Translations under genes and position numbers: made by a program
Notes under the pieces: generated by a model
Database searches by the model: none
What the model was told of the DNA's origin: nothing
The model's input: only the letters and a program-made list of their open reading frames with translations
Source: Candidatus Bathyarchaeota archaeon
GTDB taxonomy: Archaea > Thermoproteota > Bathyarchaeia > 40CM-2-53-6 > DTDX01
Assembly: GCA_018396775.1 (NCBI GenBank)
Contig: JAGTRF010000001.1
Location: 62,001 to 126,000, forward strand
DNA length: 64,000 nucleotides
Direction of reading: 5' to 3'
In this document: positions 15,114 to 20,664 of the stretch, one piece after another
How positions within the stretch are numbered: position 1 is the stretch's first letter
Layout: the number at the start of each line of letters is the position of its first letter

Positions 15114-16351
15114 TTTAACTTTCCCTCTTTTAGTATTTCTTCAAACTCTTCTTCAAAAAGGTGTCTTCTCCATTTATTTATATTAATTTGCTGCTTAATT
15201 AACTCTTTTATTAAATCAGTTTTTTCAGCTTTTCCTACAAGCAACGCGCCAGCAATTTTTTCATCTTTTAAAACAAGCTTTAAATATAATCCTTTATTTA
15301 ATTCATTTTTAACTAAAAATTCATATATACTCTCGTTAGATGGGTTTGTTAATCCTATTGAAGCTATGGGAATGCCGAAAATAAATTCTATATTAGCTGG
15401 AACCCCTAAATAGTTTTTCTTATCTTGAGCAACAATATTGAAACCTGCTATTTCCCCCTGCTCTAATGCTGAAGACCAAGAAGTGTAAATTAAATACTGA
15501 GCGTTTAAAGGATTATAAACTTGAGCAGCATCTCCAGCTGCATAAATATCTTGCACACTCGTCTCCATATATTCATTCGTTAAAACACCTTTATCAGTTT
15601 TAACTTCAGTTTCTTTAAGAAATTTTATTGCAGGTTTCACACCTATTGCTACAATTAATAGTTGACACCTTATTTTTCGTCCTTTAGATGTTTCAACCTC
15701 TGAAACTGCTTCGTTTTCACCTTTAATTTCAACCAACTCTTCATTAAAGTTAACTTCAACGCCTCTTTCCTCTAATTTAGATTTTATAAAATTTGAAACT
15801 TCAAAATCAAACATTTGAGGGGAAAGCCTTGAACCTCTCTGGAGAATATGAACTTTTAAACCTTTTTCAGAGAACGCCTCAGCCATATTTAACCCAAGTA
15901 ATCCTCCACCAACAATTGTAGCTTCTTCAACTTTCTCCATATACTCTTTAATAGCTTTAGCATCATCTAAAGTTCTTAATGTAAACACGCCTTTTAAATT
16001 TAGGTTTGTCCATTCACCTGTTATTGGAGCCGCTCCTGAAGCAATTAACAATTTATCATATTTCATTTTTTCTTTTGAATTCAATAAAATTTCTTTTTCC
16101 TTTACAAGAATTTTCTCTACAGCTTTACCTAAAACTTGGTTTATCTCATTTTTTAAGTAAAACTCAGGTTTTTTAGCTTTAAGTTTTTCTTCAGAAAATC
16201 TGCCAGCAATAAACCAAGGTAAATTTCTTCTAAAATAGAATGAATGTTTTTCTTCAGATATTAATGTTAATTCAGATTTATCATCAATTTTTCTAATTGT
16301 TTCAGCAGCTTTTACACCTGAAGGCCCATTACCAATAATTACAATTTTCAT
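15110..16351 (-). CDS. FAD/NAD(P)-dependent oxidoreductase
   Basis: 413-residue pyridine-nucleotide disulfide reductase-fold protein of the NADH oxidase / NirB-N / rubredoxin-reductase group. It has the FAD-binding GNGPSGVKAAETI at residue 7, the NAD-binding VGGGLLGLNMAEAF near 150, and DIYAAGDAAQV near 270. No redox-active CxxC or the peroxiredoxin-type Cys is seen, so the electron acceptor is unclear. It overlaps the subtilase stop by 4 nt (ATGA) and the next gene by 4 nt, suggesting coupled translation, which is surprising for a cytoplasmic flavoprotein beside secreted proteins. Confidence 0.85.
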   Translation of the reverse strand: MKIVIIGNGPSGVKAAETIRKIDDKSELTLISEEKHSFYFRRNLPWFIAGRFSEEKLKAKKPEFYLKNEINQVLGKAVEKILVKEKEILLNSKEKMKYDKLLIASGAAPITGEWTNLNLKGVFTLRTLDDAKAIKEYMEKVEEATIVGGGLLGLNMAEAFSEKGLKVHILQRGSRLSPQMFDFEVSNFIKSKLEERGVEVNFNEELVEIKGENEAVSEVETSKGRKIRCQLLIVAIGVKPAIKFLKETEVKTDKGVLTNEYMETSVQDIYAAGDAAQVYNPLNAQYLIYTSWSSALEQGEIAGFNIVAQDKKNYLGVPANIEFIFGIPIASIGLTNPSNESIYEFLVKNELNKGLYLKLVLKDEKIAGALLVGKAEKTDLIKELIKQQININKWRRHLFEEEFEEILKEGKLK

Positions 16352-18927
16352 GAATTAATCCTTCTTCTTATTGATGTTAAGTGAATTATAAGTATTGCGA
16401 TAAAGCTGATTATGAATGATTCAAGCTTGAAACCTGGGATTGCAGCTGAATTTAAACGCGCTTCAATTGATTTAACTATATTGCTGCTTGAGGCGACTAC
16501 ACGAATCTTATATGATGATGGAGGTGTAGCTGGAGATGTGCGTATCATCAAGAGTGTTGAAGCATTTGGTTTTATTGATTGAGGATTAAATTGAGCTGTT
16601 GAGTTAGGAGGTAAATCAAAAGCGTTAAAGGTTACTTCTGAATTAAAACCATTTATAGATGAAACAAAAATCGTATAATTAATTGTTTGTCCTGGAAAGA
16701 AATATTGAGCTTGAGGGGAAATGGATAAAGAAAAATCTTTTTCTATATTTATTTCAGGTTTAAAGTAAGCTATAAGAGTTTTACTTCCATCAACAAAAAC
16801 TGTTAGATTTATTGAGTTTATTCTTCCAAATCCATAGTTATCCCATTCAAGCCAAGAAACATCAGGTGGAATTGAAGTAACAGTTAACTTAGCTGTTGAA
16901 TTGTAGTCAGCTGAAACTTGAAATATCGGTTCTTTTTCAACGCTTTTTTCTAAACCATCTTCAAAATAATTAATTAAAATTTTAGCTTTAACCTCGCTAG
17001 AAGGCTCTTTAGGATATTGATAATCATTTAAATGCGCGTGAATTGTTAAAAAAGCTTTTCTACCTATATTAAAAGCTTCTAAAAGTTTAAAATAAGCTAT
17101 AACAATTTTATCCCCATTCATAAATAAAGTTAACTCTTGAGTTTTCACTCTACCAATTCCATAATCATCCCACTCAACTAAAGAGTAGTTGGTTAACTCT
17201 GAAGTTATTTTTAAAGAAACTTCGGTTCCATAATCAATGAAAATTTTTGATATAGGTTTAACAATTTCGCTTCGAGTTAAACCACCGCTCATATAAGTAA
17301 TCATGATTTCAATATTTAATTCTTCTGAAGGTTCATTTGGATATTGAAACTCTATTGAATGCGCATGAACTTCTAAGGTTTTCTTTTCTTTAATTAAATT
17401 ATATGCTTTAAAAGCATCTATTACACCTGCCCCATAAATGTTATCTTTTCCAGAAGCACCTTTATCAATTGCGCTTTCTTCTAAAATTAATTGAATTTGA
17501 TCTGGAGTAAGATTTGGGTTAATGCTTAATAAAAGAGCTGCAACACCAGCTACATGAGGGGCAGAAGCTGATGTTCCAAAAAAATTTGATGAACCATAGG
17601 AAGAAGTTGATACACCATCTGGTCCGGTTAAATCAGGTTTAATTCTTCCATCATCTGTTGGCCCTCTTGAACTGAAGCTTTCTATATCTTTTGTAGCGAA
17701 GAAAACTGCGCCAACAGTTAAGCTTCCCTTAGCTTCAGCTGGACAAGTTAAGCTTTCAGACTCCACGTAATGCTCTAACTCAAAATCGAAATTGAATAAG
17801 TGAAGCTTAACATCTCTCTCGCCTCCAGCTTTTTCAATTACAATTCTATAAACGCTGGTTTTAGGTGAAATAAAAAAGATTTCTTCAATTGGTGGTTGAA
17901 AACCAGTTTGAGGGTTATTAGAGTAAGCTACTAAATTAGAAAATTCATCTAAAAGATAAAGATCGTAATCTATGCTTGAGTAAGGCCAATCGTTCCAGCT
18001 TAAAAAAACCCTTATAGCAGAGCCTTTATAAGCTAAAAACTCATTGGTTTCATCTTTTAAATAAAACTCATGGAAACCATCTTTATCTTCATCTTTAAAG
18101 CTTCCACTCCAATGTTCTAAAGCTTCGTTTCCAGCTGCAGTAACAAATAAAACGCCTTTATCTCTAGCTTCATCAACAGCCTCATCTATATAACTTGTTC
18201 CATCATAAGGACCAACGTTAACAAATCCAATTGAACAAGAAATTACTTTAACACCAATATTTACAGCGTATTCTAAGGCTGCTAAAAACTCTATATCTGT
18301 CTCAAAGTTAAATAAATAAAGCTTTGCTTTAGGCGCTACATCAATTAAAATTTCTGCGCAAGCTGTTCCATGATGAAGGTTTTCTGATGAACCTCCAGTA
18401 ATATCTTTATCAGCTCTAAAAGATTTATATTCAACAATATTAGATTGAATTTCAGGGTTTAAAACATCAAATCCTAAATCTATAATTGCAACTTTAACGT
18501 TTTCTCCCAAAACACCTTGCGAATGAAGAAGACTTGCTTGAATAGAGTTAACGCCTTCACTTTGAATAGCAAATGGAATAGCTTTACTTGGCAATTTAAC
18601 AAAGCGTATAAAGGATGAATTAAGAATTTTAGGAAGAAGATTAATAGGGATTCTTCCTTGAATCAAATTTTTATAGCAAGCTTCTAAAACCACATTACTT
18701 TCTAATAACTTTGCTAAATCGTCTTCATCATTCAACTCAAAAACTAACTTAATCGATTCGCTTCCTTTATTTAATGTTAGATTTTGATTTAAGCCATTTT
18801 TTATAGGTAAAATAAGATTTTCTAAATCTATTTTGCTTCCAACTTTATTTTCATTATTTTCCAGCGAAGGTTTAAAGGATAATAAAATAGTTAAAATTAG
18901 GATTAACGCTAAAGTTCTAAGCTTCAT
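16348..18927 (-). CDS. Secreted, membrane-anchored subtilisin-like protease (S8)
   Basis: 859 residues. Signal peptide (1-18), a prodomain-like segment (about 58-125), and an S8 catalytic domain with Asp150 in AIIDLGFDV, His186 in HHGTA, the oxyanion Asn in TAAGNE and Ser in GTSASAPHVAG (about 450). A long insertion with CARDB/PPC-like character lies between the Asn and Ser regions. After it come two tandem repeats of about 100 residues (each starting HAH and ending IAYFK with a VEWD/LEWD core), an Ig-like domain, and a C-terminal membrane helix plus RRR tail. So it probably sits on the outer face of the cytoplasmic membrane. It is 13 nt downstream of a gene for a separate prodomain-like protein. 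Confidence 0.9.
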   Translation of the reverse strand: MKLRTLALILILTILLSFKPSLENNENKVGSKIDLENLILPIKNGLNQNLTLNKGSESIKLVFELNDEDDLAKLLESNVVLEACYKNLIQGRIPINLLPKILNSSFIRFVKLPSKAIPFAIQSEGVNSIQASLLHSQGVLGENVKVAIIDLGFDVLNPEIQSNIVEYKSFRADKDITGGSSENLHHGTACAEILIDVAPKAKLYLFNFETDIEFLAALEYAVNIGVKVISCSIGFVNVGPYDGTSYIDEAVDEARDKGVLFVTAAGNEALEHWSGSFKDEDKDGFHEFYLKDETNEFLAYKGSAIRVFLSWNDWPYSSIDYDLYLLDEFSNLVAYSNNPQTGFQPPIEEIFFISPKTSVYRIVIEKAGGERDVKLHLFNFDFELEHYVESESLTCPAEAKGSLTVGAVFFATKDIESFSSRGPTDDGRIKPDLTGPDGVSTSSYGSSNFFGTSASAPHVAGVAALLLSINPNLTPDQIQLILEESAIDKGASGKDNIYGAGVIDAFKAYNLIKEKKTLEVHAHSIEFQYPNEPSEELNIEIMITYMSGGLTRSEIVKPISKIFIDYGTEVSLKITSELTNYSLVEWDDYGIGRVKTQELTLFMNGDKIVIAYFKLLEAFNIGRKAFLTIHAHLNDYQYPKEPSSEVKAKILINYFEDGLEKSVEKEPIFQVSADYNSTAKLTVTSIPPDVSWLEWDNYGFGRINSINLTVFVDGSKTLIAYFKPEINIEKDFSLSISPQAQYFFPGQTINYTIFVSSINGFNSEVTFNAFDLPPNSTAQFNPQSIKPNASTLLMIRTSPATPPSSYKIRVVASSSNIVKSIEARLNSAAIPGFKLESFIISFIAILIIHLTSIRRRINS

Positions 18928-18940
18928 TTAACTCTTCCTT

Positions 18941-19357
18941 TCAAACTAAATTCTTCATTAAAATCGGTTCTTTAGGTGTTCGAATAAATTTAACTAAAGG
19001 CGAGTTAGATAAGGATTCAAGATTATTTATAGGAACTAATGCTTGAACCATATTTTTGTAACGTTTTTCTATAACTACACCGTAACCTTCTGGGACCTCT
19101 GCCTGCTCGTTTACAAGCTCTATTACAACTCTTACTTTTCCCTCTTCATAAAATATTCTATTTGCTTCAGCAAAACTTTCTACATTTTCACCTTTAGAGT
19201 AGACTTCAATTAATTTTTGGAGAGAAGCCTCTAATTTTTCAGGTTTTTTACTGCTTTTAAAAGGTGTAAAAAAAGATTTTTGAGCGATAATCACGCTAAT
19301 CGCTAATGAAGCTAAAATAGCGATTAACAAACCATATTTTAAAAATTTTCTCAACAC
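18941..19357 (-). CDS. Secreted stand-alone subtilase-prodomain-like protein
   Basis: 138 residues: a basic start and one hydrophobic helix (about 8-25) as signal or anchor, then a folded part (about 74-131). The folded part aligns with the prodomain of the neighbouring subtilase: VRVVIELVNE against IKLVFELNDE, YKNMVQALVPINNL against YKNLIQGRIPINLL, and LVKFIRTPKEP against FIRFVKLPSKA. It has no catalytic domain. Inhibitor_I9-like prodomains act as folding chaperones and inhibitors, so a trans-acting inhibitor or foldase for the protease encoded 13 nt downstream is the natural reading. This is inference from similarity and operon position. Confidence 0.8.
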   Translation of the reverse strand: MLRKFLKYGLLIAILASLAISVIIAQKSFFTPFKSSKKPEKLEASLQKLIEVYSKGENVESFAEANRIFYEEGKVRVVIELVNEQAEVPEGYGVVIEKRYKNMVQALVPINNLESLSNSPLVKFIRTPKEPILMKNLV

Positions 19358-19457: not shown

Positions 19458-19466
19458 CTTTAAATA
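19458..19466 (+). promoter_or_regulatory. TATA-like box of the tRNA-Pro gene
   Basis: CTTTAAATA centred about 26 nt before the first base of the mature tRNA, the expected spacing for an archaeal promoter whose transcript starts at or very near the tRNA 5' end. Confidence 0.6.
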
Positions 19467-19487: not shown

Positions 19488-19614
19488 GGGGCTGTCGGCT
19501 AGATCTCAGCCTTAAAAAGGCTGTGAAGCAAATCTGGTCTAGGCTACGTGGCTTGGGAATTGAAATCGTCAAGAACCCACGTGATCGCCGGTTCAAATCC
19601 GGCCAGCCCCACCA
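19488..19614 (+). tRNA. tRNA-Pro (anticodon UGG) with two apparent introns
   Basis: Acceptor GGGGCTG (19488-19494) pairs with CAGCCCC (19604-19610), followed by A73 and an encoded CCA (19612-19614). T-arm GCCGG-TTCAAAT-CCGGC is perfect and the variable loop is TGATC. D-stem GGCT/GGCT pairs through two G-U and two G-C pairs. The anticodon stem is CGTGG/CCACG with C32, T33, TGG as anticodon and G37. Between G37 and C38 lie 18 extra nt (19558-19575). CTTG pairs with CAAG and the 3-nt bulges GGA and AAC place cuts exactly at 37/38, the canonical bulge-helix arrangement. The D-loop carries about 29 extra nt (near 19503-19535, ends ambiguous because ATCT is repeated) able to form a CAGCC/GGCTG hairpin. 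Confidence 0.85.
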
Positions 19615-19996: not shown

Positions 19997-20028
19997 CTTG
20001 TTAGACAAATATGCATTTGGTGAATTGT

Positions 20029-20253
20029 ATGAATATAACTATTAGAAAGGTTAATGAAGCGATTTTTAAAAAGTTTAAAGCAAAAGCTGTAGAAGAAGGG
20101 ATGAAAATTGGCGAGGCTTTAACTCAAGCTATGGTGCTTTGGATTAAGCAAAGAAGCTTAAAGCCTAAAGTAGGCCTTTTGGATATTAAGCCATTTAATT
20201 GGGGCGATAAAGAAGTCAGCTTAAAGGTTGATAAGATTTTATATGGAGATTGA
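20029..20253 (+). CDS. VapB-like antitoxin (copy A)
   Basis: 75 residues from ATG 20029 (MNITIRKVNE), with the longer ATG 20011 judged unlikely from the promoter position. The N-terminal strand and two helices (FKKFKAKAVEEGMKIGEALTQAM) resemble a ribbon-helix-helix DNA-binding domain; the C-terminal tail should wrap the toxin. The PIN toxin gene follows after 3 nt. A shortened inverted copy lies at 27,146-27,253. Confidence 0.75.
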   Translation: MNITIRKVNEAIFKKFKAKAVEEGMKIGEALTQAMVLWIKQRSLKPKVGLLDIKPFNWGDKEVSLKVDKILYGD

Positions 20254-20256
20254 ATA

Positions 20257-20664
20257 ATGATCCTTCTTGATTCAAGCTTTATTATAGCTTATTCAAATGA
20301 AGTTGATGAAAATCATAATAAAGCTTTTCAAATTGCAAAGGATATAGATTTAGGCATATATGGAGCGCCGGTCATTACAGATTATATTTTTGACGAAGTT
20401 GTTACAGTTATGTTAATAAAAGTAAAGAATTTAATGAAAGTTATAGAACTAGGAGAAGCGCTGCTGAATGCAACAATTCTTCTTGAAGTGGATAAAGATT
20501 CATTTAACTTAGCATGGGATGTTTTTAAAGCTCAGTTAAAGCCAAGCTTAAGCTTTACTGATTGCACTAGTATAGCATTATGCAGAATCAATGGAATATC
20601 AAATATAGCAACCTTTGATAAAAAATTTTATGAATTAGGCGAGTTTAAAGTTGTTGGATTTTAA
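20257..20664 (+). CDS. VapC-type PIN-domain toxin (copy A)
   Basis: 135-residue PIN domain RNase. Acidic residues expected for metal binding are present: Asp in ILLDSSFI, Asp/Glu in DYIFDEVVT, Asp in SFTDCTSIA and Asp in ATFDKKF. All four positions appear intact, so the toxin is probably active. It pairs with the antitoxin gene 3 nt upstream. Its 3' end runs into DNA containing integrase relic B. Confidence 0.85.
   Translation: MILLDSSFIIAYSNEVDENHNKAFQIAKDIDLGIYGAPVITDYIFDEVVTVMLIKVKNLMKVIELGEALLNATILLEVDKDSFNLAWDVFKAQLKPSLSFTDCTSIALCRINGISNIATFDKKFYELGEFKVVGF

Follow-up and report, generated by a model that had tools for sequence, protein, structure and literature searches.

The question raised by this locus is whether positions 19,488–19,614 on the forward strand of the window (the whole 64,000-nucleotide stretch of Candidatus Bathyarchaeota archaeon DNA analyzed here) encode a working tRNA-Pro(UGG) with introns in both the D-loop and the anticodon loop, as had been proposed in a sequence-only reading. 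The features assigned to it are listed below, with the basis of the assignment in brackets.

19,488–19,614, plus strand: tRNA-Pro(UGG) gene with encoded CCA and two introns.
19,459–19,466, plus strand: putative TATA-box-like element TTTAAATA, 22–29 bases upstream of the mature 5' end (from sequence).
19,488–19,502, plus strand: exon 1, with the acceptor 5' strand GGGGCTG, T8 and C9, the D-stem 5' strand GGCT, and A14 and G15 (decoding, ortholog comparison).
19,503–19,532, plus strand: D-loop intron of 30 nt at position 15/16 (absent from uninterrupted orthologs; boundaries and motif shared by six further genomes).
19,533–19,557, plus strand: exon 2, with the rest of the D-loop TCTGGTCTA, the D-stem 3' strand GGCT, A26, the anticodon stem strand CGTGG, C32 and T33, the anticodon TGG, and G37 (decoding).
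19,558–19,575, plus strand: anticodon-loop intron of 18 nt at position 37/38 (motif fit, ortholog comparison).
19,576–19,614, plus strand: exon 3, with C38, the anticodon stem strand CCACG, the variable loop TGATC, the T-arm GCCGG-TTCAAAT-CCGGC, the acceptor strand CAGCCCC, the discriminator A, and the encoded CCA (decoding).

Removal of both introns gives a 76-nt tRNA-Pro(UGG), plus CCA, that folds as a cloverleaf with T33 followed by the TGG anticodon, A14, G18G19, A21, a G15-C48 pair, and a TTCRA T-loop. Its D-stem is weak, with two G-U pairs, and is likewise weak in the uninterrupted orthologs. The tRNA-Pro(UGG) genes of G178, which belongs to the same class, and of G261 and G282, which belong to the same phylum, have no intron, and the predicted product of the window gene is identical to the G261 and G282 genes at 74 of the 76 positions, the two differing bases forming one compensating acceptor-stem pair, C-G to U-A. 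This agreement bears out the identification of a tRNA-Pro(UGG) with introns in the two loops. A purpose-built tRNA decoder, to which intron positions were not supplied, also chose the same two introns. Upstream of the gene, the same-genus ortholog has AATTTAAAAGCTAACTTTTAATA, which resembles TTTAAATA, at the equivalent place.

The 18-nt intron at 37/38, described in the sequence-only reading, was confirmed at 19,558–19,575. It forms a strict bulge-helix-bulge motif (hBHBh') except that the inner helix is weak and short: the outer helix h is the 5-bp anticodon stem CGTGG/CCACG, the central helix H pairs exonic CTTG (19,552–19,555) with intronic CAAG, and the 3-nt bulges are GG|A and AA|C. When the intron letters were shuffled with the splice sites fixed, the motif score was matched by approximately 0.4% of the shuffles. 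Nearly every ortholog of the order has an intron at this site; G178, G261, and G282 do not.

The D-loop insertion lies where the earlier reading had placed it, and its ends were corrected, from approximately 29 nt between 19,504 and 19,534 to 30 nt at 19,503–19,532, a shift of at most two bases. Comparison with orthologs indicated that the intron ends at A19532 and that the exon resumes at T19533, since the segment from the D-arm through the anticodon in G261 and G282, GGCTAGTCTGGTCTAGGCTACGTGGCTTGGG, is the window gene minus 19,503–19,532. Six genomes of the order (G029, G030, G031, G034, G036, and G037) have the 37/38 intron only, and the D-loop junction reads GGCTAG-TCTGGTCTA in all of them. 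The boundaries do not slide, because the first base of the intron is A and the next exon base is T, and the last base of the intron is A and the preceding exon base is G, which fixes the intron as 30 nt at 15/16. In its motif, exonic GGCT (19,497–19,500) and intronic AGCA (19,527–19,530) form the central helix H with three of four pairs and a G-A mismatch, the splice bulges are AG|A and AA|T, and the intronic helix h' is TC-CAGCC/GGCTG-GA, with seven pairs and one mismatch; the CAGCC/GGCTG pairing recognized in the earlier reading is part of this helix. That reading had been unable to fit a strict bulge-helix-bulge, rightly so, as no strict hBHBh' fit of the window's D-loop intron scored well. 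With the G-A mismatch in H and no outer helix, the motif is of the relaxed HBh' form. Its score was reached in none of 20,000 shuffles of the intron letters with the splice sites fixed (<0.005%). Because such shuffles rarely reach the observed motif scores, the introns are not attributable to chance.

To this can be added the comparison of the 15/16 inserts in seven genomes of the order, which are 30 nt long in the window's own genome (G000), 30 nt in the same-genus genome (G001), 33 nt in G026, 19 nt in G027, 24 nt in G021, 48 nt in G032, and 44 nt in G033. All seven start AG|A, with A following CTAG, and end with AA or AC before the exon, and their interiors are divergent. In each, the exonic GGCT or TGCT forms 3–4 bp with the 3' part of the intron, where the partner is AGCA, GGCA, GGCG, GGCC, GGTC, or GGTT, and the central helix H is paired at four of four positions in G026, G027, G021, G032, and G033, compared with three of four in the window gene. 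The inner helix varies in sequence and is largely paired, being CAGCC/GGCTG in the window, TCGCAGCCC/GGGCTGCGA in G026, and TTTC/GAAA in G027. Shuffled 15/16 introns matched the observed score in <0.005% (window) to 0.5% of trials, although the genomes are related and these values, not being independent, should not be combined.

A real D-loop intron in another register, for example one of 28 nt at 19,504–19,531 that would leave a D-loop two bases longer, is very improbable. On the motif alone, this register, shortened by one base at either end, does score slightly higher, with a motif-pairing score of 18.7. However, it would give AGAATCTGGTCTA, which occurs in no uninterrupted ortholog, whereas the 30-nt register gives AGTCTGGTCTA, which is identical to the uninterrupted genes, and in G026 and G027 it is the 30-nt register that pairs every base of the central helix.

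It is very improbable that only the 37/38 intron is removed and that the D-loop insertion stays as an enlarged D-arm of a working tRNA. The insertion is a stable hairpin inside an alternative D-arm helix, and its motif is not a strict bulge-helix-bulge, both of which would suit its retention; the minimum-energy fold of the precursor has a different D-arm pairing that is 4.9 kcal/mol better than the splicing-competent fold. On the other hand, the flanking exon letters are equal in orthologs with and without the insertion, the splice-site letters and the 3–4 bp helix are constant although the insertion ranges from 19 to 48 nt with a divergent interior, and the predicted spliced form occurs as natural uninterrupted genes elsewhere.

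The earlier reading had also raised the possibility of a dead copy. ARAGORN did not detect any tRNA in the window, nor was there an Rfam match at the gathering score. Matches to the tmRNA and permuted-tmRNA models were discarded as weak, with 18.7 and 20 bits, respectively, against a cut-off of 47 and most of the signal in the tRNA-like 3' half. A pattern search of the 1.33-Mb, 98.5% complete genome, which would overlook genes whose arm letters differ or whose introns are long, revealed no second tRNA-Pro(UGG); across the class, absences in the tRNA-Pro pattern searches are uninformative for the same reason. That a decaying or dead gene lies here and another tRNA-Pro(UGG) does the work is hardly credible, even with the standard finders missing it, because the pattern search yielded this one copy only and conservation of the gene extends across the order, with all stems intact, 94% identity to the same-genus ortholog with every difference intronic, and heavy use of CCA, the commonest proline codon in the long ORFs of the window (249 of 556).

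The locus is, therefore, very probably the one functional tRNA-Pro(UGG) gene of the genome, with a predicted precursor that carries two introns, is cut by the splicing endonuclease, and is joined by RtcB. The gene would be transcribed with both introns, and the archaeal tRNA-splicing endonuclease would cut the strict motif at 37/38 and the relaxed HBh' motif at 15/16, probably with the participation of an alpha subunit that is missing from the assembly. An RtcB-type ligase would then join the exons, and the resulting 76-nt tRNA-Pro(UGG) with its encoded CCA may read CCA and, by wobble, other proline codons.

As for the machinery, RtcB was found in the window's genome, and two endonuclease genes (Pfam PF01974) were found in seven of nine genomes (G001, G026, G027, G021, G033, G030, and G010), the pair in G010 being partial, at a contig end. 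In the same-genus genome, the alpha-type protein can be aligned end to end with solved catalytic chains of the crenarchaeal type (E 1e-42 to 1e-46). Its Y/H/K residues are conserved and, as assigned from the alignment, so is the lysine corresponding to K44 of the Crenarchaea-specific loop, a loop that reportedly allows relaxed motifs to be cleaved (PMC6379350). Searches of the window's assembly with PF01974 and by further means did not find an alpha subunit and detected the beta type only (C1:151546-151773). A simple contig-end gap as the reason lacks support, because the DNA of the alpha-gene region of G001 matches this assembly only at two separate, contig-internal places.

In the neighborhood, approximately 400 bases downstream of the tRNA gene, an 80-aa ORF and, immediately after it, a gene for a PIN-domain protein (PF01850, E 4e-11) occupy 20,011–20,664 on the plus strand, a VapBC toxin-antitoxin layout. 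On the minus strand, at 16,348–19,357, there is a subtilase gene (PF00082) preceded by a 138-aa ORF that resembles a related N-terminal fragment. The same-genus genome has, instead of the subtilase gene, one for an oxidoreductase nearer the tRNA gene.

Introns in the D-arm are found beyond this gene. The decoder, which is heuristic, allows one intron per arm, and gives approximate counts, identified 33 plausible tRNA genes in the window's genome, and about eight of them, in addition to tRNA-Pro(UGG), have D-arm introns with good scores, including tRNA-Leu(GCG) at 15/16, tRNA-Ile(GAU), tRNA-Ser(UGA), and two tRNA-Ala. With D-arm introns also published in Caldiarchaeum (PMC3293823), the view that D-loop introns are known mainly from Thermoproteales was too narrow. 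The tRNA-Leu(GCG) gene (G000:C3:64950-65250) has a short 15/16 intron ACTTACAGCGGGAA, in which intronic CGGG pairs with exonic CCCG, and a long insertion of approximately 47 nt at 37/38. A tRNA-Thr(GGU)-like gene (G000:C3:44800-45050) has an insert of approximately 23–25 nt close behind the acceptor stem, near positions 8–12, and another at 37/38.

Judged by CTP synthase, the nearest named relatives of the window's genome are mostly Bathyarchaeota MAGs, with 70% identity at best, which makes the lineage Bathyarchaeia-like. In relatives, the D-arm intron of tRNA-Pro(UGG) varies in place. Most f2 genomes have one that fits 22/23 instead of 15/16, also with a bulge-helix-bulge, and G021, G032, and G033 have three introns, at 15/16, 22/23, and 37/38, so that the rarity ascribed in the sequence-only reading to two introns in one tRNA was overstated. 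An insert compatible with 15/16 is also present in G510, a genome from outside the class. Large late D-arm inserts with no 37/38 intron were observed in G405, G483, and G444, of another family of the phylum. We tentatively suggest, as a possibility that falls somewhat short of an even chance, that D-arm introns may have been gained and lost recurrently, at 15/16 and 22/23, in the tRNA-Pro(UGG) of this Bathyarchaeia-like order, two families of which have three-intron genes, and that 15/16, used also in G510 and in the tRNA-Leu of the window's genome, could be an undescribed shared entry site. The versions of one tRNA with zero, one, two, and three introns represent a natural series for archaeal intron gain and loss outside Thermoproteales. 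Moreover, tRNA counts in such genomes are too low without intron modeling, as is illustrated by this tRNA-Pro(UGG), which neither ARAGORN nor Rfam at its gathering score detected.

A search with partial coverage of the literature found no report on tRNA introns in Bathyarchaeia, and tRNAs with up to three introns and with D-arm introns have already been published (PMC4090602, PMC8450103, PMC3293823). The relaxed-motif endonuclease of Aeropyrum pernix, an (alpha-beta)2 enzyme with the Crenarchaea-specific loop (PDB 3AJV/3P1Z; PMC6379350), is comparable in that the G001 alpha subunit aligns with it over the full length, with a lysine at the K44 place, and differs in that the window's assembly yielded no alpha subunit. 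The tRNA-Thr(GGU) of Caldiarchaeum subterraneum, with introns at 24/25 and 45/46 (PMC3293823), is similar in having D-arm and multiple introns outside Thermoproteales, but it is another isoacceptor and the positions are different. Pyrobaculum islandicum tRNA-Pro(UGG), with introns at 25/26, 37/38, and 56/57 (PMC4090602), is the same isoacceptor and likewise combines canonical and non-canonical introns with relaxed bulge-helix-bulge forms, whereas the non-canonical site of the window gene is at 15/16 in the D-loop and its lineage is Bathyarchaeia-like; the text of that review does not name 15/16 as an intron position, although its list closes with 'etc.' The two-intron tRNA-Pro(UGG) of the window thus belongs to a known kind, that of the multi-intron tRNAs, of which the three-intron tRNA-Pro(UGG) of Pyrobaculum is a described member.
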